In this document: piece after piece, positions 30,534-43,407 of the stretch
How the letters are laid out: each line of letters opens with the position of its first letter
Numbering within the stretch: the first letter of the stretch is position 1
Assembly: GCF_004345565.1 (NCBI RefSeq)
Contig: NZ_SLWA01000001.1
Location: 95,892-159,891, forward strand
From: Flavobacterium circumlabens
GTDB taxonomy: Bacteria > Bacteroidota > Bacteroidia > Flavobacteriales > Flavobacteriaceae
Reading direction: 5' to 3'
Length of the DNA: 64,000 nt
The notes under the pieces: generated by a model
The model's database searches: none
What the model was told of the DNA's origin: nothing
The model's input: only the letters and a program-made list of their open reading frames with translations
Position numbers and translations under genes: made by a program

Positions 30534-33500
30534 ATGGCACAATTCAATTTCAATAAATGGAATACAATTATTGGTTGGTTTGCATTTGCAATCGCTTTAA
30601 TTACTTATACACTAACTGTTGAACCTACAATGAGCTTTTGGGATTGTGGCGAATATATTGCTACAGCGGCCAAATTGGAAGTTGGTCACCCGCCCGGAGC
30701 TCCTTTATTTCAAATGATGGGCGCTTTCTTTGCCATGTTTGCCATAGACAATCAGCATGTAGCCGTAATGGTAAATATGATGTCTGTTTTCTCAAGTGCC
30801 TTTACGATTCTGTTTCTGTTTTGGTCTTCTTCTATGATTTTGAAAAAAATTATAGCTCGTTTTGCTGAAATCGATCAAAATAATTCAATTGTCATCTTAG
30901 GAAGTTCTTTTGTCGGAGCTTTGGCCTTTACTTTTTCAGACAGTTTCTGGTTTAATGCCGTTGAAGCCGAAGTTTACGCAATGGCTTCTTTATTAATTGC
31001 CTTACTTTTCTGGCTTGGACTTCGTTGGGAACAAGACATGGACAAACCAACAGGAAACAAATGGTTATTGGTGATTTCACTTGTTATCGGTCTTTCGTTT
31101 GGAGTTCACTTCATGGCTTTGCTTACAATTCCTTCAATAGGATTTTTATACTATTTTAAACACTACGAAAAAGTTACAATCAAAAACTTTCTAATAGCCA
31201 ATGTTGTTGTTATCGGTGTTTTGTTGTTTATCTTCAAATTACTTTTACCCTTAACAATGGCTTTCTTTGGAAAAACGGAAATTTTCATGGTAAACAGCAT
31301 GGGATTACCTTTTAATTCAGGAACCATTTTTGTGCTTTTACTGTTTATCGCTTTCTTTTATTTCGGATTAAAATACACCAGACAAAAAGGGCTTGTTTTC
31401 TACAACACTATCATTCTTTGTGTCTTATTTATTTTAATAGGTTTCTCAACCTGGATGATGTTGCCGGTACGTGCTAATGCCAATACGGTAATTAATGAAA
31501 ACAAACCATCGGATGCTACAGAGGTTTTAGCGTATTACAACCGTGAACAATATGGTGTAAATCCATTGTTTTACGGGCCTCAGTATACTGAAGTTTTTGC
31601 TGGTCTGGATGCTAAAACACCTTATTTGGACAAAAATCCAAACTACGAAAGAGATTATAAAACCGGTAAATACATTATTACCAACAATTATAAAAACGCG
31701 GAACAAAATACAGATGACAATCAAAAAACCATTCTTCCAAGAATGTGGAGTACTGAAACAAGTCACATTCAGAACTATATCAGTTTTACAAATCCTCCGA
31801 GTTTCAAAATAAATCCAAATTATCCTTACGAAGATGATTTGGCGAAATACGGAATCGACGCCAGTCAGTTAAGCGAAGACGAATACAATAAAGCTACTGC
31901 CCAATTGCGCAATGAAGTAGAAAAAACAGTTTCTGAATTCAGAAAAGCGTATGCTCAAAAACAAATTGACAACGAAGGTTACACCAAATTCCTGAAAAGT
32001 TATGGTGATTATCTAATTATTGAAAAACCATCTGCAGTAGACAACTTTAGTTTTATGTTCGAATACCAATTTGGATATATGTACTGGAGATACCTGATGT
32101 GGAACTTTGTCGGACGTCAAAACGACATTCAGGGGAAATACGATAATCTAGACGGAAACTGGATTAGTGGAATCAAACAATTGGACTCCTTACACCTTGG
32201 TTCTCAGGACAATTTACCTTCGGATGTACTAAATAACAAAGGAAGAAACGTTTATTTCTTCTTACCTTTTATTTTAGGACTGATCGGACTTATGTATCAC
32301 GCTAACAAAGACCTTAAAAGTTTTTATGTCCTTTTAGCCTTATTCCTATTCACCGGAATTGCCCTGAAAATTTACCTGAACGAAAGACCTTTCGAACCTC
32401 GTGAAAGAGATTATGCCCTTGTAGGCTCCTTTTATGTATTTGCGATCTGGATAGGATTTGGCGTATATTCTTTATACGAAAGCATACAGAAATACATTGC
32501 ACCTAAGCTTGCCGGCCCGATCATTATAGCCGCAAGTTTACTGGCAGCTCCTGTTTTAATGGCTTCTCAGAACTGGGACGATCATGACAGATCCGGTAAA
32601 TATACTGCTGTAGCAATGGCAAAAGCGTATTTAACTTCATGTGATAAGGATGCTATATTATTTACCATTGGAGACAATGATACGTTCCCGTTGTGGTATG
32701 CCCAGGAAATCGAAGGGGTGCGAACAGATGTAAAAATCGTAAATACAAGCCTTTTTATGACGGACTGGTACATTGATCAGATGAAAGCCAAATCGTACGA
32801 ATCTGAACCACTGCCAATATCATTTACACATGCCGAATATGTGGGTGACAAACTGGATTATGTGGCTCACATTCCAAAAATAGAAACGCGTTGGAACATT
32901 AATGACTTTATCAGTTTTATTAAAAATCCAAAATCAACTGTAGGTCTACAAAATGGACAAACCATTCATTTTTACCCAACTAATAAAATCAGGGTTACTG
33001 TTGACAAAGCTTTAATTATTAAAAACAAAGTGGTCAACCCAAAATACAATGATTCTATTGTTCCTTATATGGACATTAACATTAAGGGAAGCGCGTTATA
33101 TAAAAACCGCTTAATGATGCTGGACATACTGGCAAACAATAACTGGAAGAGACCGATCTACTTTAGCGGAGGTGCTTTTGATGACGAAGATTATTTATGG
33201 CTGAAAGACTATTTACAACTGGATGGAATGGTTTACAAATTAGTTCCTGTCAAAAACACGCCATCAAAAGACGGCGGACCAATGGACATGGGGCAAATTG
33301 ATGCCGATAAAATGTACAATATTGTAATGAAATGGGACTGGGGTAACAGTGACAGCAATACCATATATCACGATCCTGAAACAAGAAGAAACAGTATCAC
33401 CTACCGTACCAATCTGTCTCGTTTAATGAATCAGCTTATTGAAGAAGGTAAAATTGACAAAGCTAAAAACGTTATCAATTTAGCCATGACAAAAATGCCT

Positions 33501-33815
33501 CTGGACAAATTCGGATATTATTCATTAGTTGAACCTTTTGCCGGAGGATACTATAAAGTGGGAGAAAAAGCAAAAGCACAGGATCTGCTGAATAAACTGG
33601 TTCAGAAATACAAAGAAGAACTAAATTATTACGCAACTTTAAGCGCTTCTGACCAAACTGACTTAGCCATTGATATTATTACTGAAATTGAGCGTTACAG
33701 AAGCTTATTGGAAGTAATGAAAGACAACAACGACAACGCGTTCTATGAAAAACATAAAGTAACTTTTAATACTTATGTAAATGTTTTCGAACGCTTTGGA
33801 AGAGAAAAGGAATAA
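30534..33815 (+). CDS. DUF2723 / GT117-family membrane glycosyltransferase-like protein
   Basis: 1093 residues. The N-terminal DUF2723 region has the signature TYTLTVEPTMSFWDCGEYIATAAKLEVGHPPGAPLFQMMG (acidic Asp/Glu pair after W) and about ten membrane helices in residues 1-330. A further helix cluster lies at about 570-690, followed by a soluble C-terminal part of about 400 residues with TPR-like helices at the end. The family is CAZy GT117 and includes human TMEM260, a protein O-mannosyltransferase. Bacteroidota O-glycosylate many exported proteins, so a role there is plausible but inferred. A candidate TACTTTTG box lies at 30439-30446. Confidence 0.85.
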   Translation: MAQFNFNKWNTIIGWFAFAIALITYTLTVEPTMSFWDCGEYIATAAKLEVGHPPGAPLFQMMGAFFAMFAIDNQHVAVMVNMMSVFSSAFTILFLFWSSSMILKKIIARFAEIDQNNSIVILGSSFVGALAFTFSDSFWFNAVEAEVYAMASLLIALLFWLGLRWEQDMDKPTGNKWLLVISLVIGLSFGVHFMALLTIPSIGFLYYFKHYEKVTIKNFLIANVVVIGVLLFIFKLLLPLTMAFFGKTEIFMVNSMGLPFNSGTIFVLLLFIAFFYFGLKYTRQKGLVFYNTIILCVLFILIGFSTWMMLPVRANANTVINENKPSDATEVLAYYNREQYGVNPLFYGPQYTEVFAGLDAKTPYLDKNPNYERDYKTGKYIITNNYKNAEQNTDDNQKTILPRMWSTETSHIQNYISFTNPPSFKINPNYPYEDDLAKYGIDASQLSEDEYNKATAQLRNEVEKTVSEFRKAYAQKQIDNEGYTKFLKSYGDYLIIEKPSAVDNFSFMFEYQFGYMYWRYLMWNFVGRQNDIQGKYDNLDGNWISGIKQLDSLHLGSQDNLPSDVLNNKGRNVYFFLPFILGLIGLMYHANKDLKSFYVLLALFLFTGIALKIYLNERPFEPRERDYALVGSFYVFAIWIGFGVYSLYESIQKYIAPKLAGPIIIAASLLAAPVLMASQNWDDHDRSGKYTAVAMAKAYLTSCDKDAILFTIGDNDTFPLWYAQEIEGVRTDVKIVNTSLFMTDWYIDQMKAKSYESEPLPISFTHAEYVGDKLDYVAHIPKIETRWNINDFISFIKNPKSTVGLQNGQTIHFYPTNKIRVTVDKALIIKNKVVNPKYNDSIVPYMDINIKGSALYKNRLMMLDILANNNWKRPIYFSGGAFDDEDYLWLKDYLQLDGMVYKLVPVKNTPSKDGGPMDMGQIDADKMYNIVMKWDWGNSDSNTIYHDPETRRNSITYRTNLSRLMNQLIEEGKIDKAKNVINLAMTKMPLDKFGYYSLVEPFAGGYYKVGEKAKAQDLLNKLVQKYKEELNYYATLSASDQTDLAIDIITEIERYRSLLEVMKDNNDNAFYEKHKVTFNTYVNVFERFGREKE

Positions 33816-33837
33816 AATACGAAAAACTTTGCAATTA

Positions 33838-33882
33838 AAAAAATGTAGCGCTGTTAGATAAATAGCGCTACATTTTTTATTT
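33838..33882 (+). terminator. Terminator after GT117 gene
   Basis: Perfect 12-bp stem AAATGTAGCGCT (33841-33852)/AGCGCTACATTT (33864-33875), followed by a T-run. Confidence 0.85.
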
Positions 33883-33910
33883 TTACATATCACTAAATCA
33901 TTTTTGAAAA

Positions 33911-34549
33911 ATGAGCTTCTATTGGGTAAAAACTAACACATTCATTAAAAGGGTATTTTCTAAATATTGTTGGGATATCCCGAACAATGAAAAGAAAATA
34001 TACCTCACTTTTGATGATGGCCCAACGCCCGAAATTACGGACTGGGTTTTATCTGAATTGAAAAAATTTGATGCAAAAGCTACCTTTTTTTGTATCGGAA
34101 AAAACATAAAAGCGAATTCTTCCTTATTTGAAAAACTGATTACCGAAGGTCATTCTATCGGAAATCATACCATGAACCATATTAACGGATGGAAAAGTAA
34201 AACCAACGATTATATTGAAAATGTAAAAAATTGCGCTACCGTCCTGAATGAAGAAAAAAACTTAAATCCGCTGATCTTTCGTCCTCCTTACGGGAAGATA
34301 AAAAAAGAGCAATCTAAGATTTTAAGAAATTTAGGCTATAAAATAGTAATGTGGGATGTGTTAAGTGCTGATTTCGATCAGAGTATTACCCCTGAAAAAT
34401 GTCTTGAAAACGTTACTAAAAATGTAAAATCAGGAAGTGTTATTGTTTTTCATGACAGTGTAAAAGCATCACAAAATTTAAAATTTGCCTTACCTAAAAC
34501 ACTGCATTTCCTAAAAGAAAATGGATTTGCTTTTGATATTATTCACTAA
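33911..34549 (+). CDS. Polysaccharide deacetylase (NodB homology domain)
   Basis: 212 residues, essentially a bare NodB domain. Motif 1 is TFDDGP, motif 2 HSIGNHTMNH (zinc His pair), motif 3 FRPPYG, and the late motif SVIVFHDS. Zn-dependent de-N-acetylation of a glycan such as peptidoglycan or a surface polysaccharide. No clear signal peptide, so the compartment is uncertain. Follows the GT117 gene after a terminator. Confidence 0.92.
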   Translation: MSFYWVKTNTFIKRVFSKYCWDIPNNEKKIYLTFDDGPTPEITDWVLSELKKFDAKATFFCIGKNIKANSSLFEKLITEGHSIGNHTMNHINGWKSKTNDYIENVKNCATVLNEEKNLNPLIFRPPYGKIKKEQSKILRNLGYKIVMWDVLSADFDQSITPEKCLENVTKNVKSGSVIVFHDSVKASQNLKFALPKTLHFLKENGFAFDIIH

Positions 34550-34570
34550 AATAATATCCGGAATCTTTTA

Positions 34571-34873
34571 TTATAAGTTAAATTGATCCTGAACAATTCC
34601 GATTATTGTATTGGCATCGAGTTCTCCTGACTGTCTCCAGATCATTTGTCCTTCTTTGTAAATCATTAAGGTAGGAAGTCCCTTTATACGCAAGGCTTCA
34701 GCAAGTTCCTGGTTTTTATCTACATCAATTTTAATGACTTTGGCCTTATCGCCAAGTGCAGCAGCCACATCCTTGATAACAGGATGCATTGACACAGATG
34801 ATTCGTTCCAATCAGTATAAAAATCAATTAACACCGGAACCTGAGCATTTATAAGTTCTCCAAATTTTGACAT
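34571..34873 (-). CDS. Thioredoxin-fold protein lacking the CXXC active site
   Basis: 100 residues, complete thioredoxin length. The fold markers are present: VLIDFYTDW, KVIKIDVDKN and the cis-Pro loop GLPTLMIYKEG. The usual WCGPC is replaced by W22-N-E-S-S26, and the protein has no cysteine at all, so it cannot be a disulfide reductase. More likely a binding or chaperone-like protein. A minus-strand TACATTTG box (34924-34931) lies about 50 bp upstream. Confidence 0.85.
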   Translation of the reverse strand: MSKFGELINAQVPVLIDFYTDWNESSVSMHPVIKDVAAALGDKAKVIKIDVDKNQELAEALRIKGLPTLMIYKEGQMIWRQSGELDANTIIGIVQDQFNL

Positions 34874-34945
34874 AAAACCAAAAATTTAATTCTTTTAATC
34901 TATTAAAAAGAGATAGTTTAATACAAATGTAGCATTTTTAACGAA

Positions 34946-36181
34946 TTAAGCCACATTCTTCCCTTTTTTTAGTTCAATGACCGTTATCTCCGGCATAATA
35001 CCAACCCTTCCCGGATAGGCATGAAAACCAAAACCACGGTTCACATATACATATCGGCCAAACTCTTCATATAGTCCAGCCCATTGTTTGTAAATATATT
35101 GTGCAATACTCCATTTAAAATAGCCCGGTATTTCAATACCAAACTGCATTCCGTGTGTATGTCCGGACAACGTCAGATGAAAGTTTTTAGGATGGTTTTT
35201 AATTTCATATTCCCAATGGCTTGGATCATGACTCATTAAGACTTTAAAATCATCCTGAGCTACATTTTGAGATGCTTTATTCAAATCTCCGGCTTTTTTA
35301 AAATTCTGCCCCCAGTTCTCTACTCCGATCAATGCAATTTTATCGTCGCCTTTTTGGATGTAAGTATGCTCATTTAGCAATAAATTAAAACCAATCTGAC
35401 CGTATAATTTTTTGATGTCCTGAAAATTTTCTTCTTTTTGCGTTTCCGATGGCCAGGTAACATATTCACCGTAATCATGGTTTCCTAAAACTGAAAATTT
35501 TCCGTATTTGTAGTCTTTTATTCTGTTGAAAGACGCTAACCAGGGATGCATTTCTTTTGCATGTGTATTTACAATATCTCCTGTAAACAAAATCATATCT
35601 GATTCCTGCTGATTGATCAGGTCAATAGCATAATTGATTTTCTCCGGATTATCAAAACTTCCACTGTGAACATCCGAAATCTGAGTGATTTTAAAACCAT
35701 CAAAGGCATCCGGAAGGTCCGGAAAAAATATGGTCTGTTTAATTACTTTAAAATTATACTTCCCTTCAAAAATTCCGTAAATTAAGGAAAGAAAAGGAAC
35801 CGCAGCCAATCCTAAACCAATCTGACTGATGAATTTTCGCCTTGACGGAATAGCTTCTGAACCACTTGAATTGTATACAAAATAATTTACTATTCCTGCT
35901 CCGGCTCTAAAAATATCTTCACCAAACATAATTAGTGTCAGGACAATTTTAGGCACATAAACCATAAGCATCAGGCCAGTAGTAAACATAAACTGTCTCG
36001 TCTGTCCAACGGAGCGATCAACCTGCGAAAAAGAATAGATGATAAAAATTAAAAGCAGTACACTTATAATTTGATAACTAACCAAAACCCACCTTAATTT
36101 GATTAAAGTTCGAAAGGCCTGGTAAGAATAAAACTCAATAAATAAAAAAAGAGCACATAGAATTATAAAACGAACGATCAT
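34946..36181 (-). CDS. Membrane-anchored metallophosphoesterase
   Basis: 411 residues. About four or five membrane helices in residues 1-150, then a calcineurin-like phosphoesterase domain: ISDVHSGSF (metal Asp and His), FTGDIVN, LGNHDYGEY, and the GHTHGMQFG motif. Resembles YkuE-type phosphoesterases acting on lipid or nucleotide substrates; substrate unknown. A PSRRKFISQIGLGLAAVPF stretch near residue 112 looks like a Tat motif but is internal, after the first helices. Confidence 0.9.
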   Translation of the reverse strand: MIVRFIILCALFLFIEFYSYQAFRTLIKLRWVLVSYQIISVLLLIFIIYSFSQVDRSVGQTRQFMFTTGLMLMVYVPKIVLTLIMFGEDIFRAGAGIVNYFVYNSSGSEAIPSRRKFISQIGLGLAAVPFLSLIYGIFEGKYNFKVIKQTIFFPDLPDAFDGFKITQISDVHSGSFDNPEKINYAIDLINQQESDMILFTGDIVNTHAKEMHPWLASFNRIKDYKYGKFSVLGNHDYGEYVTWPSETQKEENFQDIKKLYGQIGFNLLLNEHTYIQKGDDKIALIGVENWGQNFKKAGDLNKASQNVAQDDFKVLMSHDPSHWEYEIKNHPKNFHLTLSGHTHGMQFGIEIPGYFKWSIAQYIYKQWAGLYEEFGRYVYVNRGFGFHAYPGRVGIMPEITVIELKKGKNVA

Positions 36182-36264
36182 TAGTTATAGTTTTAAGCAA
36201 AGTAACAAAGAATGAATTTTTTATTGCTTTTTATTATCAAAAATTTAACTCAAATATAAATCAA

Positions 36265-36293
36265 AAGGCTGATAAATTTCTTTACCAGCCTTT
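36265..36293 (-). terminator. Terminator of Lys-rich peptide A
   Basis: The minus strand folds AAAGGCTGGTAAA-GAAA-TTTATCAGCCTTT: a 13-bp stem with one G-U and a GNRA (GAAA) tetraloop. Nearly the same hairpin follows the paralogous peptide at 38770-38797. Confidence 0.75.
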
Positions 36294-36369
36294 CTCTCTG
36301 CTCAAAATTATCTTTACTCATTATTTAACAGCCAAACCAAAAGCTATGAAACCAAATAAAAATTACTTT

Positions 36370-36558
36370 TTATTTTTTTGTTTCTGCTTTAGCTGCTTCT
36401 GCTTTAACCTCCGCTTTCTTAGCTTTTTTCTCTGCCTTTTTCTCTTTTTTAGGAGCTTTTGCTTCTTTTACCGGAGTTGTTTGTGCCGGAGTTGTCTGAG
36501 CGTTTACCATTGCTGTTGTTCCTAAAACTGCTACTGCTAACATTACTAATTTTTTCAT
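36370..36558 (-). CDS. Small secreted Lys/Ala-rich peptide A
   Basis: 62 residues: signal peptide MKKLVMLAVAVLGTTAMVNAQ, then a mature chain of 41 residues almost entirely Lys, Ala, Glu, Thr, Pro and Val, with no aromatics or cysteines. Paralog of the peptide at 38867-39082 (shared AVLGTTAMV core and TPVKEAKA/TPVKEVKA mature motif). Composition recalls the E. coli periplasmic acid-shock protein Asr, which is induced by a two-component system; homology is not claimed. Promoter: TATCTTTG at 36603-36610 with a direct repeat upstream. Lies 3' of the histidine kinase gene. Confidence 0.75.
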   Translation of the reverse strand: MKKLVMLAVAVLGTTAMVNAQTTPAQTTPVKEAKAPKKEKKAEKKAKKAEVKAEAAKAETKK

Positions 36559-36602
36559 GACTTTGAATTTTATAAATTATTATTATTTGATTATTTATAA
36601 GC

Positions 36603-36638
36603 CAAAGATAGAATCAGTAAATGAAGATGAAATGAAGA
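36603..36638 (-). promoter_or_regulatory. Promoter and direct-repeat operator of peptide A
   Basis: The minus-strand -7 box is TATCTTTG (36603-36610). Exactly 10 bp further upstream, in the region where the -33 element would lie, is ATGAAGA-N4-ATGAAGA (36621-36627 and 36632-36638 in plus-strand orientation), an 11-bp-period direct repeat as used by OmpR/PhoB-type regulators. No TTG -33 element is present, as expected for an activated promoter. Confidence 0.6.
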
Positions 36639-36668
36639 TTTGCCGTGTTAAAAAAAATTAACTTTAAA

Positions 36669-38003
36669 TTAAGTTTTTGCAGTTTCCGGGAACAAAAGCA
36701 GAAATGTTGTTCCTTCGTTAATTCCTGAGGTAACCTTAATTTCTATATGATGAAAATTAGCAATACTATCTGCGATAGCAAGTCCGAGGCCTTGCCCGTC
36801 CTGATCTGAATTGATTCGGGCAAACCGGTTAAATATCTTTTCAATTTGAGAAGAATCCATGCCGATTCCTGAATCTTCGATAGCAATAAAATAGTGTCGG
36901 TTTAGAAATCCGTCAGTAATTGTGATTTTTCCTTTTTGATAATTGTATTTAATTGCATTTGTAATCAGGTTGTAAATAAGAATATGAATCAGTGTTTTAT
37001 TTCCTTTAAAACTAAAATCATGTTGCATTGTATTCGAAAACTCAATTTCTTTATCTTCAATTCTGTCCTGAAGATCTTCCTGCATGTCTGTTATAATTTC
37101 ATAGAAATGAATCTCTTCTTCGGTTGTATACTGATTGTTTTCGATTCGGGAAATCAACAGCAGGTTATTGATAATTTTTTTCAACATGTCCAATGTCTTC
37201 AGGGAGCTCGCAATTTTATCAACCGCAGTATCATCTAAGGAATCATTCTGCAATAAATTTTCCAGCTTGTTTTTGAGTAAAGCGATTGGTGTAAGAAGTT
37301 CGTGCGAAACGTTGGAGATAAATTGTTTTTCTTTTTTAAAAAGCTCTCCGATACGATCCATCATCTGATTTAAAACCAAATCAAGTTCCCTGAAATCCCG
37401 TGATTTTGCTTTTATTGGCGTATGATCGAAAGTTTCGGGTTCATTGACCCGTCGAATTTTAGTATCAATTATTTTATAAAAAGGTTTCAGCAGATATTCA
37501 ATATAAACTGTATCAGCCAGAAATGTAACCAGAAGAATAATCACCAAAACAATAATAATAAATAACCTGATGATAAATGTGAGGTCGTTTACTTCGCTAA
37601 GATCACTGCCAATTTCGAGTTGATATCCTTCCTTTTCATAGGTGAAATGATATTGGAGAATTCTGTACTCATTCTCTTCCCCCTCAATAATCCGATAGTC
37701 ATTACTAAAAGTGGTTTCTTTTTGACGAGGCTTTACGGGAACTTTCGAAAGTACCAGAAACTCACTGTGAAGCGTGGAAAATTGCGAATACGTTTCGGTT
37801 GAATCACCGGGATTTTCGATAAAATCATTAATCTCATTTTGATTTAAATGGTCAATAAATTTTTTCTTTTTCTCCAGCAATCCATTATTAATATGCCTGT
37901 AAACTACATTTTCGACCAAAATGGGCAACATTAACCATAAAACCAAAATAACCAACAATCTTGTCAGTGCATTAAAAATCGCCAATTGGTGTTTTATCTT
38001 CAC
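36669..38003 (-). CDS. Two-component sensor histidine kinase
   Basis: 444 residues. TM1 about 12-35, periplasmic sensor about 36-142, TM2 about 143-165, HAMP-like linker, HisKA with phospho-accepting His234 (SNVSHELLTP), and HATPase with the N box LIYNLITNAIKYN, G1 DSGIGMD and G2 GQGLGLAI. Senses an envelope signal and phosphorylates the regulator encoded 11 bp upstream. Flanked by paralogous secreted peptides that are probable targets. Confidence 0.93.
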   Translation of the reverse strand: MKIKHQLAIFNALTRLLVILVLWLMLPILVENVVYRHINNGLLEKKKKFIDHLNQNEINDFIENPGDSTETYSQFSTLHSEFLVLSKVPVKPRQKETTFSNDYRIIEGEENEYRILQYHFTYEKEGYQLEIGSDLSEVNDLTFIIRLFIIIVLVIILLVTFLADTVYIEYLLKPFYKIIDTKIRRVNEPETFDHTPIKAKSRDFRELDLVLNQMMDRIGELFKKEKQFISNVSHELLTPIALLKNKLENLLQNDSLDDTAVDKIASSLKTLDMLKKIINNLLLISRIENNQYTTEEEIHFYEIITDMQEDLQDRIEDKEIEFSNTMQHDFSFKGNKTLIHILIYNLITNAIKYNYQKGKITITDGFLNRHYFIAIEDSGIGMDSSQIEKIFNRFARINSDQDGQGLGLAIADSIANFHHIEIKVTSGINEGTTFLLLFPETAKT

Positions 38004-38014
38004 AATATCTTATT

Positions 38015-38689
38015 TTACTCATTAATTCGATAGCCGACATTTCTGACTGTTTCAAACCAGCCGATATCGGTATGTTTGTCTAACTTTTTTCGAAGATTCC
38101 GAACATGAACATCTATAAAATTAGAATCTGAATTCACTTCCAGAATATCACCCCAAATATGCTCGGTTAATTGCAGCCGGGTAATCACCCGATTTTTATT
38201 CAGCACCAAATACTGAAAAATATCAAACTCTTTTTTGGTCAGATTAACAGGAATAGCATTGTAGCTTACCTTATAGTCCTGCAATTGCAGGGAGAAGCCA
38301 TGAACTACCAGGTCATTCAATGTAAAACCATGCATTCTGCGAATAACCGCAAACAAACGGGCACTCAATTCGGTTAAGGCAAACGGTTTTGTGAGATAAT
38401 CATCGGCGCCAAGATGCAAACCATTAATTCTGTCGTCTAATTCGCCACGAGCTGTAATGACAATGACAGCAATCTTTGATTTGGTTTTCCGAACAGCCCT
38501 CAAAACCTCAAAACCATCACCATCAGGCAGGCCAAGATCGAGTAGCATGGCATCATAATCATTACTGTTTACCTCTTCTAAAGCATCACTGCAATTATGA
38601 GTAATCTTGCACACATAACCCGTGTTGCATAAAAAATCATACACTTCTGCAGCAAGTTCCTTATTATCTTCAACAATTAAAATATTCAT
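38015..38689 (-). CDS. OmpR/PhoB-family response regulator
   Basis: 224 residues from the ATG at 38689 (MNILIVEDNK); an upstream in-frame start would add seven residues. Receiver domain with acidic pocket (E7, D8), phosphorylated Asp51 (AMLLDLGLPDG), Lys101 (LTKPF). C-terminal winged helix (about 125-222; TKKEFDIFQYLVLNKNRVITR, SNFIDVHVRNLRKKLD). Partner of the adjacent histidine kinase. Expected to bind tandem half-sites with 11-bp spacing, which occur before both peptide genes. No clear -7 box precedes it, so it may be read through from peptide B's promoter. Confidence 0.93.
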   Translation of the reverse strand: MNILIVEDNKELAAEVYDFLCNTGYVCKITHNCSDALEEVNSNDYDAMLLDLGLPDGDGFEVLRAVRKTKSKIAVIVITARGELDDRINGLHLGADDYLTKPFALTELSARLFAVIRRMHGFTLNDLVVHGFSLQLQDYKVSYNAIPVNLTKKEFDIFQYLVLNKNRVITRLQLTEHIWGDILEVNSDSNFIDVHVRNLRKKLDKHTDIGWFETVRNVGYRINE

Positions 38690-38767
38690 ATACACAAATT
38701 CTAAGCGCAACTAAAATTAGGCAATTATAAAAAGCCCTGTTGCCTGTTATTAAAAAATTAACGAATC

Positions 38768-38801
38768 AAAAAAAAAGCTGATAAATTTCTTTATCAGCTT
38801 T
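38768..38801 (-). terminator. Terminator of Lys-rich peptide B
   Basis: The minus strand folds AAAGCTGATAAA-GAAA-TTTATCAGCTTT, a perfect 12-bp stem with a GAAA tetraloop, followed by a T-run of nine. The same structure follows peptide A. Confidence 0.85.
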
Positions 38802-38866
38802 CTCCATAATTATCCTTTCTGTTTTGCTCCCCTTACAATCCTTCGACAGCAAAACAAAAACAACTC

Positions 38867-39082
38867 TTATTTTTTCATTGCTGAGGCTTCTGATTTTGGA
38901 GCTTCTTTTTTATCTGATTTTGCTTTTTTATCAGATTTTTTTCTGGGATGTTTTGTAGCTTTAACCTCTTTTACGGGAGTTGCTTTAACTTCTTTTACAG
39001 GACCAACTTTTAAAGCCGGAAATGCATGTACCATTGCTGTAGTTCCTAAAACTGCTACGAATAACATTAAAAAATTTCTCAT
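38867..39082 (-). CDS. Small secreted Lys-rich peptide B
   Basis: 71 residues: signal peptide ending at VHA (about residue 20), then about 51 residues rich in Lys, Ala, Ser, Glu and Val with a repeated PVKEVKAT motif. Paralog of peptide A (36370-36558); the duplication includes the terminator and promoter operator. Strongly basic, without cysteine or aromatic residues apart from one Phe. Lies 5' of the response regulator on the same strand, separated by a terminator. Confidence 0.75.
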   Translation of the reverse strand: MRNFLMLFVAVLGTTAMVHAFPALKVGPVKEVKATPVKEVKATKHPRKKSDKKAKSDKKEAPKSEASAMKK

Positions 39083-39124
39083 GATTTCTACAATTTAAAA
39101 TTAATAACCTTTTTAATTACAGAT

Positions 39125-39160
39125 CAAATTTACTCCTGTAAAATGAAGACCAAATGAAGA
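39125..39160 (-). promoter_or_regulatory. Promoter and direct-repeat operator of peptide B
   Basis: The minus-strand -7 box is TAAATTTG (39125-39132). After exactly 10 bp comes ATGAAGA-N4-ATGAAGA (39143-39149 and 39154-39160), the same motif, period and distance as before peptide A. Confidence 0.6.
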
Positions 39161-39226
39161 AAACATACCTCTTAGAAATTTTAACTTCAGATTAACTTAT
39201 TAGTCCATTCGAGGCATTTTCGACCA

Positions 39227-39324
39227 TGTAAGTTATGTAAGTTCATTTAATCTTTATGAATATGCGTAATGTTTTAAACACGCCGAATTACGCCTTCACT
39301 AAAATGAACTTATATAACTTATAT
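39227..39324. repeat. Composite palindromic intergenic repeat upstream of polA
   Basis: Left arm TGTAAGTTATGTAAGTTCAT (from 39227) pairs with the right arm ending near 39324 (AAATGAACTTATATAACTTA), with two mismatches. Inside is a second pair, GCGTAAT/ATTACGC. The whole could form a nested hairpin of about 98 nt. Confidence 0.6.
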
Positions 39325-39397
39325 CGCTAAAAAAAAATCCTGTTACTCTAATTTTTAAGGACCCAATTGTTTATTTTTACAGACTAATATTTTTTTT

Positions 39398-42235
39398 ATG
39401 TCAACTCAAAAACGTCTTTTTCTTCTTGATGCTTATGCACTAATATTCCGTGGTTATTATGCTTTCATAAAAAATCCAAGGATTAACTCCAAAGGAATGG
39501 ATACATCTGCCATTATGGGCTTTATGAATTCCCTTCTGGATGTCATCAAAAGAGAAAAACCGGATCATCTGGCGGTTGCTTTTGACAAAGGCGGAAGTCA
39601 TGTGCGAACAGAAATGTATACCGAATATAAAGCCAATCGTGACGAAACTCCGGAGGCTATAAAAATTGCGATTCCCTATATTCAGAGTTTATTAAGCGCA
39701 ATGCACATTCCAATTATTGAATCTAATGGTTGTGAGGCCGATGATTTAATTGGTACCATTGCAAAACAGGCCGAAAAAGAAAATTACAAAGTCTACATGG
39801 TTACGCCTGATAAGGATTTTGCACAATTGGTTTCTGAAAATATTTTCATGTATAAACCGGCCCGAATGGGTAACGGAATTGAAATCTGGGGTGTTCCCGA
39901 AGTTTTGGCCAAGTTTGAAATTGAAAGACCGGAGCAGGTGATTGATTTTCTCGGAATGATGGGTGATGCGGTCGATAACATTCCGGGACTGCCGGGTGTT
40001 GGAGAAGTGACCGCAAAGAAATTCCTGAAAGAATTCGGATCAATGGAGAATCTTTTGGCCAATACGCATTTGCTGAAAGGAAAAATGAAAGAAAACATCG
40101 AAGCCAATAAAGAGAAAGGAATCCTTTCTAAAAAACTGGCTACCATTATTATAGACTGCGATGTTGTTTTTAATGAAACGGATTACGAGTTAACGCGTCC
40201 CGATATCGAAAAAACAGATGCTATTTTTCAGGAACTTGAATTCAGAAGAATGGCAGAACAATTTGATAATTTGTTTAAAACAGGCGGCACTTCAACTGCA
40301 AATGAAGCCCCTGATGCCAAATTATACAAAAAACCACAACCTAAAAACGAAGATCAGTTTGATCTTTTCGGAAGTGCAACTTCAGATGAAAATCCTGAAA
40401 CCGCAAGAACTTCTTTCTATACTACATTAGAAAATACCCCTCACTCCTATCAGGCTGTTGAAGGCGATTTGGGCGTCAAATTACTTTTGCAAAATTTACA
40501 AAAACAGCCTTCTGTTTGCTTCGATACCGAAACGACAGGTTTAGATGCGTTACATGCGGAGTTGGTTGGGATTTCTTTTTCGTATGAAAAAGGAAAAGGA
40601 TATTATGTTCCGTTTCCGGAAAGTCAGGAAGAAGCTCAAACTTTAATCAACAAATTTATTCCGTTTTTTGAAAATGAAAACATCGAAAAAATTGGTCAGA
40701 ATTTAAAATACGATTTAAAAATTCTTTCTAATTACGGCGTTACTGTAAAAGGAAAGCTTTTCGATACTATGATTGCGCATTATCTGATTAATCCGGATAT
40801 GCGTCATAATATGGATATTTTAGCAGAGACTTATTTGAAATATTCGCCCAAATCAATTGAAACCTTAATTGGTAAAAAAGGCAAAAATCAACTTTCCATG
40901 CGCGATGTTGCGCTTGAAGAAATCAAAGAATATGCTGCCGAAGATGCTGATATCACTTTGCAGTTAAAAGAAATTTTCACAACAGAATTAGACAAAACAG
41001 AAACTAAAAAGTTATTTGATGAAATCGAAATTCCGTTAGTAAGTGTTCTGGCTGCTATGGAAACCGAAGGAATTCGTCTGGATGTTGAATTTTTAAGTGC
41101 CATGTCTAAAGAAATGGATGTTGAAATTAAATCTCTGGAGCAAAAAATTTATGAAAGTGCCGGAGAGAAATTTAATCTGGCCTCGCCAAAACAATTGGGT
41201 GATGTCTTATTTGATAAAATGAAAATAGGAGGCGCCAAACAAAAGAAAACCAAAACGGGTCAGTACGCGACCGGCGAAGAAGTTTTAACGTATTTGGCCA
41301 ACGACAATCCAATTGTAAAAGAGATCCTGGACTGGCGTCAGATGGTAAAATTACAGAGCACTTATATTTTGGCTTTACCGGAACAGGTAGACAAAAAAAC
41401 ATTACGTGTTCATACCGATTATATGCAAACCGTTGCCGCTACGGGCCGTTTGAGTTCTAATAATCCGAACTTACAGAATATCCCGATCCGTACCGAAAGA
41501 GGCCGTCAGATTCGTAAGGCATTTGTCGCAAGAGATGAAAACCATACGTTGATTTCTGCCGATTACTCTCAAATTGAATTGCGAATTATTGCGGCTCTAA
41601 GCGGAGAAGAAAATATGATTGCTGCTTTCCAAAACGGAGAAGACATTCACAAAGCAACTGCCGCAAAAGTATTTGATGTTCCGTTAGAAGAAGTTTCCCG
41701 CGAACAAAGAAGCAATGCCAAAACCGTAAACTTCGGAATTATCTACGGCGTTTCTGCCTTTGGACTGAGCAACCAAACTTCATTATCACGCAGCGAAAGT
41801 GCCGCTTTAATTGAGGCTTATTATAAAACATACCCACGATTGAAATCTTATATTTCGGACCAAATTGAGTTTGCCCGCGAAAAAGGATATGTACAGACTA
41901 TTTTAGGACGTCGTCGTTATCTGAAAGATATCAATTCGGCAAATACAGTGGTGAGAAGTGCCGCTGAACGAAATGCTGTAAATGCCCCTATTCAGGGAAG
42001 TGCTGCAGATGTCATTAAAATTGCCATGATCAACATTCATAAAAAATTAAAAGAAGAAAACTGGAAATCAAAAATGCTGCTTCAGGTACATGATGAGCTT
42101 GTGTTCGATGTTCACAACGATGAACTTGAAAAAATCCAGCCCATGATCAAACACGAAATGGAAAATGCTTTTAAAATGGCCGTTCCTTTAGAAGTGGAAT
42201 TAGGAATGGGTAAAGACTGGCTGGAGGCGCATTAA
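39398..42235 (+). CDS. polA: DNA polymerase I
   Basis: 945 residues. N-terminal 5'-3' exonuclease (1-290; LFLLDAYALIFRGYYAF, TPDKDFAQLVSENI). The 3'-5' exonuclease domain is intact (about 360-540; FDTETTGLDAL, AEDADITLQLKE), so proofreading is expected. The polymerase domain has motif A (ISADYSQIELRIIAALSG), motif B (RSNAKTVNFGIIYGVSAFGL) and motif C (QVHDELVFDV). Works in Okazaki fragment processing and repair. Monocistronic, convergent with the LacI gene. Confidence 0.97.
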   Translation: MSTQKRLFLLDAYALIFRGYYAFIKNPRINSKGMDTSAIMGFMNSLLDVIKREKPDHLAVAFDKGGSHVRTEMYTEYKANRDETPEAIKIAIPYIQSLLSAMHIPIIESNGCEADDLIGTIAKQAEKENYKVYMVTPDKDFAQLVSENIFMYKPARMGNGIEIWGVPEVLAKFEIERPEQVIDFLGMMGDAVDNIPGLPGVGEVTAKKFLKEFGSMENLLANTHLLKGKMKENIEANKEKGILSKKLATIIIDCDVVFNETDYELTRPDIEKTDAIFQELEFRRMAEQFDNLFKTGGTSTANEAPDAKLYKKPQPKNEDQFDLFGSATSDENPETARTSFYTTLENTPHSYQAVEGDLGVKLLLQNLQKQPSVCFDTETTGLDALHAELVGISFSYEKGKGYYVPFPESQEEAQTLINKFIPFFENENIEKIGQNLKYDLKILSNYGVTVKGKLFDTMIAHYLINPDMRHNMDILAETYLKYSPKSIETLIGKKGKNQLSMRDVALEEIKEYAAEDADITLQLKEIFTTELDKTETKKLFDEIEIPLVSVLAAMETEGIRLDVEFLSAMSKEMDVEIKSLEQKIYESAGEKFNLASPKQLGDVLFDKMKIGGAKQKKTKTGQYATGEEVLTYLANDNPIVKEILDWRQMVKLQSTYILALPEQVDKKTLRVHTDYMQTVAATGRLSSNNPNLQNIPIRTERGRQIRKAFVARDENHTLISADYSQIELRIIAALSGEENMIAAFQNGEDIHKATAAKVFDVPLEEVSREQRSNAKTVNFGIIYGVSAFGLSNQTSLSRSESAALIEAYYKTYPRLKSYISDQIEFAREKGYVQTILGRRRYLKDINSANTVVRSAAERNAVNAPIQGSAADVIKIAMINIHKKLKEENWKSKMLLQVHDELVFDVHNDELEKIQPMIKHEMENAFKMAVPLEVELGMGKDWLEAH

Positions 42236-42289
42236 TTTTATTTTAGATTTAGACTACAGATTTTAGATTTCCGGGTAAAAGAAACACAA

Positions 42290-42321
42290 TCTTGTGATTT
42301 CTCCTCCGTCGAAATGACACA
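42290..42321 (+). repeat. GTGATTTCTCC-GTCGAAATGACAC repeat, copy 1
   Basis: Shares about 30 bp, in the same orientation, with 62650-62681 (TGTGATTTCTCC...GTCGAAATGACACAA). The preceding 42240-42270 is also repetitive (TTTAGATTTAGA, TTTTAGATTT). Confidence 0.6.
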
Positions 42322-42323
42322 AT

Positions 42324-42358
42324 AAAAAAAGACTGTCCTTTTGGAACAGTCTTTTTTT
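42324..42358. terminator. Bidirectional terminator between polA and LacI gene
   Basis: AAAAAAAGACTGT pairs with ACAGTCTTTTTTT around an 8-9 nt loop. A/T runs on both sides suit both convergent genes. The stem resembles the coxA terminator. Confidence 0.8.
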
Positions 42359-42378
42359 ATGTATCTCTTTTTTTTGAA

Positions 42379-43407
42379 CTATAATTTCCGAGTAGATTCT
42401 CGTTCTTTCAATACCGTCTTAATAACGATTGTTTCGTAATCCGAAGTTTCTTCTTCGTTTTCTTCCAGTCTTTTGATTAATCTTTTGGCAGCGACTTCTC
42501 CAATCTCAATTCCGTGCTGACTTACTGTAGTTAAACTTGGTGACAGACGTCTTGAAGCCAAAATTCCATCAGCAAAACCAATGATCGATAAATCTTCGGG
42601 AACTCTGTATCCTTTTTTCAATCCAACCCTTAGGGCGGCAACAGAATCATTTTCATCCAAAGCAAAAATTCCGTCAATTTTGTTGTTATCAAAAATCGCA
42701 TCAATTTTAGCTTTCATATCCTCTTCAGAATCGGTACGAAGAATGATCTTTTCGTTTACCGGAATATTATTATCTCTTAGAGCTTTCAAATATCCATCGG
42801 CTCTTAATTTTCCAACACTCAGATTATCAACTGAAGAGATTAAGGCAATATTTTTACATCCTATATTGATTAAATGCTGAGTTGAATTTAAAGCCGAATC
42901 AAAATCATCAACTACAACCTTGTCACATTCTACTTCATCTGCAATTCTGTCAAACATTACAATAGGAGTTCCGTCATTTATAATCGCCGAGAAATGGTTG
43001 TATTCCTGTAGTTTTTGTGCTTCTTCCGAAACGGACAATATAAAACCGTCGATAGTTCCGTTACTAAGCATTTCAAGTGTATGAATTTCTTTTTCCAAAG
43101 ACTCATTAGAAATACAGGTAATTACGTTATATCCTTTTTTGTCTGCTACTTTTTCGATACCGCTAAAAACCTTCGCAAAAAAGGAATTTAATATATTAGG
43201 TATAATAACTCCAATTGTTTTTGTTTTACGATTCTTCAAATTCAGACCAATAACGTTTGGTTTGTAATTTTTTAGTTTAGCATACTCTTTAATTTTTATT
43301 TTAGTCTGCTCACTGATTTCAGGGCTATCATTAAGCGCTTTAGAAACTGTTGATACAGAAACATTAAGTTCTTTCGCGATTTGTTTTAAAGTTGCTTTAG
43401 CTTTCAT
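42379..43407 (-). CDS. LacI family transcriptional regulator
   Basis: 342 residues. N-terminal LacI helix-turn-helix and hinge (ATLKQIAKELNVSVSTVSKALNDSPEISEQTKIKIKEYAK, residues 4-45), then a periplasmic-binding-protein-like domain (IGVIIPNILNSFFAKVFSGIE, SIIGFADGILASRRLSPSLTTVSQHG). Probably senses a sugar. No sugar-use genes are in the window, so the regulon is elsewhere. Divergent from the ferritin-like genes. Confidence 0.92.
   Translation of the reverse strand: MKAKATLKQIAKELNVSVSTVSKALNDSPEISEQTKIKIKEYAKLKNYKPNVIGLNLKNRKTKTIGVIIPNILNSFFAKVFSGIEKVADKKGYNVITCISNESLEKEIHTLEMLSNGTIDGFILSVSEEAQKLQEYNHFSAIINDGTPIVMFDRIADEVECDKVVVDDFDSALNSTQHLINIGCKNIALISSVDNLSVGKLRADGYLKALRDNNIPVNEKIILRTDSEEDMKAKIDAIFDNNKIDGIFALDENDSVAALRVGLKKGYRVPEDLSIIGFADGILASRRLSPSLTTVSQHGIEIGEVAAKRLIKRLEENEEETSDYETIVIKTVLKERESTRKL

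Follow-up and report, generated by a model that had tools for sequence, protein, structure and literature searches.

Among regulators of the OmpR/PhoB type, PhoB acts at the Pho box, an 11-bp-period direct repeat that lies over the upstream core promoter element. The E. coli asr promoter is reported to carry an RstA box at –77/–55 and a PhoB box at –39/–22, the latter overlapping the –35 element, with a 9-bp spacer to the –10 element (PMC9026648), and Asr itself has been described as a disordered chaperone (PMC10746267). A box reported for Klebsiella pneumoniae PmrA is the head-to-tail pair CTTAAT/CCTAAG (PMC3973317). Here we describe a locus in a 64,000-nucleotide stretch of the Flavobacterium circumlabens genome (contig NZ_SLWA01000001.1, positions 95,892 to 159,891; the window, in whose numbering all positions below are given). 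At 36370–39160 it encodes, in order of transcription on the minus strand, a 71-aa (amino acid) peptide, a response regulator, a histidine kinase and a 62-aa peptide. Judged from sequence comparison, the locus as a whole is probably best explained as a dedicated two-component circuit that controls exported polybasic peptides with an envelope-protectant role; that the regulator acts on the peptide promoters appears very likely.

The locus resembles Asr under RstBA/PhoBR, as the published accounts describe that system, in combining a small exported product with OmpR-family control, and its promoters likewise have two upstream boxes at nearly the same positions (here about –77/–60 and –40/–23), the proximal one over the upstream core element. 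It differs in that the regulator is encoded beside its putative targets, that there are often several paralogous peptides per genome, and that the promoter is of the Bacteroidota kind. The original prediction had likened the locus to Asr, a comparison that stands for the logic, the type of peptide and the promoter layout but not for family membership by sequence: in a search with PF06392 (Asr) neither window peptide was listed, one of seven relatives scored 13.0 bits against a cut-off of 24.9 and the other six were not listed, and the whole F. circumlabens genome gave no match, with the E. coli control positive. An 11-bp-period direct repeat over the upstream core element is shared with PhoB and the Pho box, but the half-site differs and the spacer is 10 bp against the 9 bp reported for asr. 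With PmrA (BasR), as far as its box is described, the locus shares an OmpR-family regulator and head-to-tail hexamer half-sites resembling CTTCAT, although its putative targets are small peptides and not enzymes of lipid A.

Strong support for the regulatory circuit comes from the strict match between kinase and repeat over 398 genomes, from the conserved promoter geometry, from the position of the peptides away from the locus in one genome (G257) and from a near-invariant recognition helix. We refer to the 71-aa product as peptide A (peptide B of the original prediction) and to the 62-aa precursor as peptide B. The genes and proximal promoter elements are as follows.

38867..39082, minus strand: peptide A gene; 71-aa precursor, leader to V-H-A (residue 20), mature part of 51 aa, net charge +11, no Cys
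38015..38689, minus strand: OmpR/PhoB-type response regulator gene; receiver and winged helix, recognition helix DSNFIDVHVRNLRKK
36669..38003, minus strand: gene of a membrane sensor histidine kinase (HisKA, HATPase_c), starting 11 bp after the regulator
36370..36558, minus strand: peptide B gene; 62-aa precursor, leader to V-N-A (residue 20), mature part of 42 aa, net charge +8, no Cys
39143..39160, minus strand: proximal repeat of promoter A, TCTTCAT-TTGG-TCTTCAT, about –40 to –23
39125..39132, minus strand: –7 box of promoter A, TAAATTTG (TAnnTTTG), exactly 10 bp from the proximal repeat
36621..36638, minus strand: proximal repeat of promoter B, TCTTCAT-TTCA-TCTTCAT, about –40 to –23
36603..36610, minus strand: –7 box of promoter B, TATCTTTG (TAnnTTTG), exactly 10 bp from the proximal repeat

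Gene order, strand and coordinates were rechecked in the window and all hold as originally predicted, and so does the distance of exactly 10 bp between repeat and TAnnTTTG at both promoters. The start of the regulator was taken to be the ATG at 38689, not the upstream TTG of a mechanical open reading frame (ORF) listing.

Kinase genes were sought in a sample of 398 Flavobacterium genomes, counting a match at E <= 1e-90 as positive. Kinase was found in 115 of them and was absent at that threshold from 283. One locus was taken per kinase-positive genome, 115 in all (the window, 14 and 100 others), and the regulator lies upstream of the kinase in every one. The pattern TCTTCAT-N4-TCTTCAT-N10-TAnnTTTG occurred in 105 of the 398 genomes, its reversed form in none, and the same pattern with a spacer of N9 instead of N10 likewise in none. 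All 105 genomes with the pattern are kinase-positive; not one of the other 283 has it. In the remaining ten kinase-positive genomes the pattern has a single mismatch, except for one site with two. The association of kinase and pattern has a Fisher value of 3e-85, a figure that ignores shared ancestry. Conservation at orthologous loci had been set beforehand as the test of the original prediction, and the repeat was found conserved there.

One kinase-positive genome, G257, separates the parts of the system. Its kinase frame is uninterrupted, with the regulator next to it, and no acceptable site lies near the pair. The exact motif lies instead on two contigs other than that of the kinase (L278, L279, L280), before two intact peptide genes and before a longer reading frame with a peptide-like part, the copy on C10, which looks decayed or fused. 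The peptides are displaced here and the motif goes with them and not with the kinase; this is the clearest single independent event that we found.

The repeat is highly specific. Exact TCTTCAT-N4-TCTTCAT (ATGAAGA-N4-ATGAAGA on the other strand) is present at two places in the 5.76-Mb genome, both of them peptide promoters. Across the 115 loci there are 170 exact repeats on the gene strand and none on the opposite strand, and the same half-sites at any other gap from 0 to 15 do not occur on the gene strand; in 165 of the 170 the distance to TAnnTTTG is exactly 10 bp. No repeat appeared in 20 Markov-shuffled versions of these loci. The repeat is far beyond chance. We then defined a site more loosely, by half-sites with at most two mismatches and a correctly spaced TA for which three or all four letters of TTTG match. 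This gave 216 sites in the 115 loci, 215 of them on the strand of the regulator; at least one gene-strand site is present in 114 loci, and 97 have a site on each side of the kinase/regulator pair, some loci ending too early to show both sides. A small Lys/Arg-rich ORF follows 204 of the 216.

The –7 element is reported to span –12 to –5 in F. johnsoniae (PMC6847099) and in F. psychrophilum (PMC9723704). On that alignment the half-sites fall at –40/–34 and –29/–23, with the four bases between them at –33/–30, the place where the –33 TTTG belongs. The original prediction had stated that no –33 TTG is present, which is correct for promoter B; promoter A, by contrast, carries TTTG-N18-TAAATTTG, and across the family 112 of 215 sites have a TTG at N16–N18 (N17 in 104), which usually falls between the two half-sites. 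Over 20 diverged B promoters the half-sites are 96–99% identical, against 34% for the adjacent flank.

Upstream of the proximal repeat both promoters have a second repeat of 11-bp period, absent from the original prediction, at about –77/–60.

39181..39198, minus strand: distal 11-bp-period repeat of promoter A, AAGTTAA-TCTG-AAGTTAA
36658..36675, minus strand: distal 11-bp-period repeat of promoter B, AACTTAA-TTTA-AAGTTAA, overlapping the last codons and stop of the kinase gene

AASTTAA-N4-AAGTTAA occurs at three places in the genome (the two promoters and one A-rich stretch) and its reversed control at two, so that the distal pattern taken alone is weaker than the proximal one. With at most one mismatch allowed, the distance from the inner copy, AGTTAW, to the proximal repeat that follows it is 25–26 bp in 76 of the 97 upstream-side sites with enough flank and in 92 of the 115 on the downstream side. 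The outer copy also reads GTTAA in the upstream-side (A) set and is looser in the B set.

The regulator is of the OmpR/PhoB type, with 92.1 bits for PF00072 (cut-off 30.2) and 77.9 for PF00486 (26.2), and the kinase has the HisKA and HATPase_c domains, with 43.4 bits for PF00512 (26.9) and 74.8 for PF02518 (26.4). None of the 25 curated models listed for either protein passed; against the PhoB equivalog TIGR02154 the regulator scored 166.0 (cut-off 296.2) and against the Bacteroidota PhoB model NF053854 141.6 (270). Its recognition helix, DSNFIDVHVRNLRKK, is the same in 112 of the 115 regulators, which parallels the constant half-site. By sequence, DrrD (1kgs) and PmrA/BasR (4s04, 8jo2) are among its nearest relatives of solved structure, the two BasR chains having been solved with DNA. 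In the kinase, a domain of roughly 110 aa between two hydrophobic stretches is taken as periplasmic. A model of this sensor domain built from 51 sequences reached a predicted local distance difference test (pLDDT) of 72.6 and a predicted template modelling score (pTM) of 0.69, and Foldseek returned no match to it at E <= 0.001. By VIA Z it was closest to the chemoreceptor TlpB (8.9; 3.3 Å, 105 aligned), DcuS (8.6; 3.1 Å, 104) and CusS (8.3; 3.1 Å, 101). The predicted fold would be PDC/Cache-like at best, and the first rank of TlpB shows no function. All 51 aligned sequences have a histidine at position 52 of the modelled fragment, which is His79 of the kinase.

Both peptides have the shared leader and the TPVKE[AV]KA motif originally described; the leaders look Sec-type by inspection, ending in V-H-A in peptide A and V-N-A in peptide B. 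The mature parts in the window are about 31–33% Lys with 16% (A) and 5% (B) hydrophobic residues, a composition from which we infer that they are probably disordered. Neither peptide scored above the cut-off of any Pfam or NCBIfam family. Across the loci the mature parts are of low complexity, variable in length and sequence, and without Cys. While two peptides is the right number for the window, it is not a fixed one: a simple script counted 0 to 4 per locus over the 115 loci. Among 127 peptide A rows the proximal site is present with at most two mismatches in 88 and with 5–9 mismatches in 39, and nearly all of the latter, among the rows listed, are inner tandem copies; in tandem A arrays the site thus stands at the first copy, as expected of an operon. 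At one locus (L103) two tandem A peptides are fused into one 144-aa reading frame with two leader-like segments.

A hairpin with a GAAA loop, likewise part of the original description, is present 3′ of each peptide gene.

38768..38803, minus strand: terminator-like hairpin 3′ of peptide A, AAAGCTGATAAA-GAAA-TTTATCAGCTTT followed by a T run
36265..36293, minus strand: terminator-like hairpin 3′ of peptide B, AAAGGCTGGTAAA-GAAA-TTTATCAGCCTTT

GAAA is the commonest loop: of 233 rows for peptides no longer than 100 aa, 111 have it (the set includes inner tandem copies, which lack their own hairpin), and other loops occur. A special RNA element was considered and rejected, because the loops vary and Rfam gave no match at gathering scores; the hairpin is treated as an ordinary terminator.

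The system is patchy in the genus (115 of 398 genomes), and it is our impression, rather than a statistical result, that many carriers have genomes of at least 4.4 Mb. Carriers include F. cupreum, F. johnsoniae CI04, F. aquidurense, F. hibernum and F. saccharophilum among the best 80 of 111 places. Outside the genus no kinase was found at E <= 1e-75, the single positive among 299 genomes of the family being F. circumlabens itself; the relaxed pattern CTTCAT-N5-CTTCAT-N10-TAnnTTTG was again limited to this genome (1 of 299), with its reversed control once in another. These family-wide searches cover forms above the stated thresholds, and more distant ones could lie below. In diverged loci, with kinases 52–63% identical, the motif also stands before a PepSY-like leader-bearing gene upstream of the regulator. 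There are five such loci (L076, L080, L082, L092, L094), and two of the proteins, tested against PepSY_like PF11396, scored 21.8 and 16.8, below the cut-off of 28.3. In genome G307 (L096, C1:4653125-4654428) the kinase is matched in two overlapping pieces and is apparently broken, while two exact motif promoters remain. Within the F. circumlabens genome the proximal repeat with at most two mismatches has 139 places, including the two promoters, against 98 for the reversed control; 28 of these places other than the promoters (L140–L167) were examined and none has TAnnTTTG within 25 bp downstream. On the strength of these 28 of the 139 places we neither claim nor exclude a wider regulon.

The repeat might instead be a leftover of gene duplication or be bound by an unrelated regulator. 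Peptides A and B are paralogous, so their promoters may share descent. Between A and B promoters of the same genome (n=96), however, the half-sites are 97% identical while the adjacent flank, at 29%, is at the shuffled level (29%) and the spacer is at 39% (shuffled 27%). The half-sites are thus maintained by selection and not by recent duplication, and the repeat with its box is absent from the 283 kinase-less genomes and accompanies the displaced peptides of G257; we regard this explanation as extremely improbable. Nor does it seem at all probable that the kinase is the Flavobacterium counterpart of PorY, serving the type IX regulator PorX, with the peptide link secondary. The PorY model NF052314 is indeed its best NCBIfam match, nearly full length (264.6 bits, E 1.7e-78; 264.1 in a genome-wide search), and no other protein of the genome is as PorY-like, the runner-up scoring 157.6. 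Yet the score is below the cut-off of 350, the kinase is patchy in the genus and is paired with an adjoining OmpR-type regulator in 115 of 115 loci, not with a distant PorX. Its absence (E <= 1e-90) from 283 of 398 genomes also speaks against PorY, with a weight that depends on whether those genomes have type IX secretion; PorX homologues are said to be present wherever a species has type IX components (PMC10951265).

Two further alternatives concern the role of the peptides. They might be signals or toxins, processed, secreted and sensed by the same kinase in an autoinducing loop, as small leader-bearing products encoded beside a sensor kinase, often as paralogous copies, would allow; their low-complexity, variable, Cys-free mature parts argue otherwise, no exporter or immunity gene was recognised among neighbouring ORFs (mostly named by eye), and we consider this hardly probable. 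The same circuit might also do another job, its regulator responding to low divalent cations or to cationic antimicrobial peptides, with the polycations binding or cross-bridging lipopolysaccharide and other anionic envelope polymers rather than chaperoning proteins. In its favour, PmrA is the top curated model for the regulator and the peptides are strongly basic. The score against the PmrA equivalog NF007928 is nevertheless 183.2 against a cut-off of 330, and no lipid A modification gene was recognised among the ORFs of 33000–42500 (mostly named by eye; two neighbours scanned). By our own alignment the base-contact positions seem to differ from those of PmrA, His195 being changed to Arg and Glu199 to Lys. 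The reported K. pneumoniae box does resemble CTTCAT (PMC3973317). We hold this other job, and with it envelope polyanion binding by the peptides, to be possible but doubtful.

Several points weigh against a dedicated circuit of regulator and peptides. Twelve of the 216 sites are not before a Lys/Arg-rich ORF: eight precede another ORF (five PepSY-like, three the regulator itself) and four have no ORF by script. The regulator gene itself is usually without the motif. The Fisher value overstates the evidence, because related genomes are not independent. Finally, the distal repeat may bind another protein, since its half-site differs in sequence and an offset of 25 bp is out of step with the 11-bp period. 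Autoregulation was considered for the three loci with a site before the regulator (L078, L081, L085) and rejected, as the start codon is separated from the site by a terminator-like hairpin and no Lys-rich ORF was seen there. In kinase orientation this hairpin is within about 120 bp of the motif promoter (L078 1672, L081 1672, L085 1671), and these promoters may be a relic of a lost peptide gene or may make a short RNA.

Taking the dedicated circuit as the best explanation, we propose that the kinase, as its domains suggest, detects some condition of the envelope with the domain flanked by its two membrane stretches and then phosphorylates the adjoining regulator. A head-to-tail dimer of the regulator would then bind TCTTCAT-N4-TCTTCAT at –40/–23, bracketing or replacing the –33 element, as the comparative evidence indicates, and would activate RNA polymerase reading TAnnTTTG; activation rather than repression is suggested by the position of the repeat over the –33 region. 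AAGTTAA-N4-AAGTTAA, at about –77/–60, would serve a second dimer, which may be of the same regulator. The circuit would thereby drive up to four polybasic, probably disordered, exported peptides. In the periplasm these may work in bulk, as charged protectants or as chaperones, under acid or cation stress, as Asr does in E. coli; this is the least certain step and is proposed by analogy, not homology. We give an Asr-like protectant role somewhat less than even chances. A rather speculative extension, and one that we think unlikely, is that Flavobacterium evolved an Asr-like stress circuit independently of enterobacteria and that it converged on the same design, promoter included, with two tandem OmpR-type boxes at almost matching positions (–77, –40), a Bacteroidota sigma promoter and bulk disordered periplasmic protectants.

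No description of this circuit was found in our searches of the open PMC library; its parts are of known kinds and, as far as these searches show, their combination is undescribed. Two-component regulators of Bacteroidota, a phylum whose sigma factor and promoters depart from the textbook pattern, have few known operators as far as we are aware. Here the regulator, its likely operator, the spacing from the –7 box and the targets can be read from sequence with unusual certainty, which makes the locus a test bed for activator-dependent transcription in the phylum. If the reading is true, the operators are so specific that one search pattern finds the main targets of the regulator in about a hundred species. 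The locus also suggests more than one origin for polybasic disordered envelope peptides under dedicated control; Asr would then be a single instance of a more general strategy.

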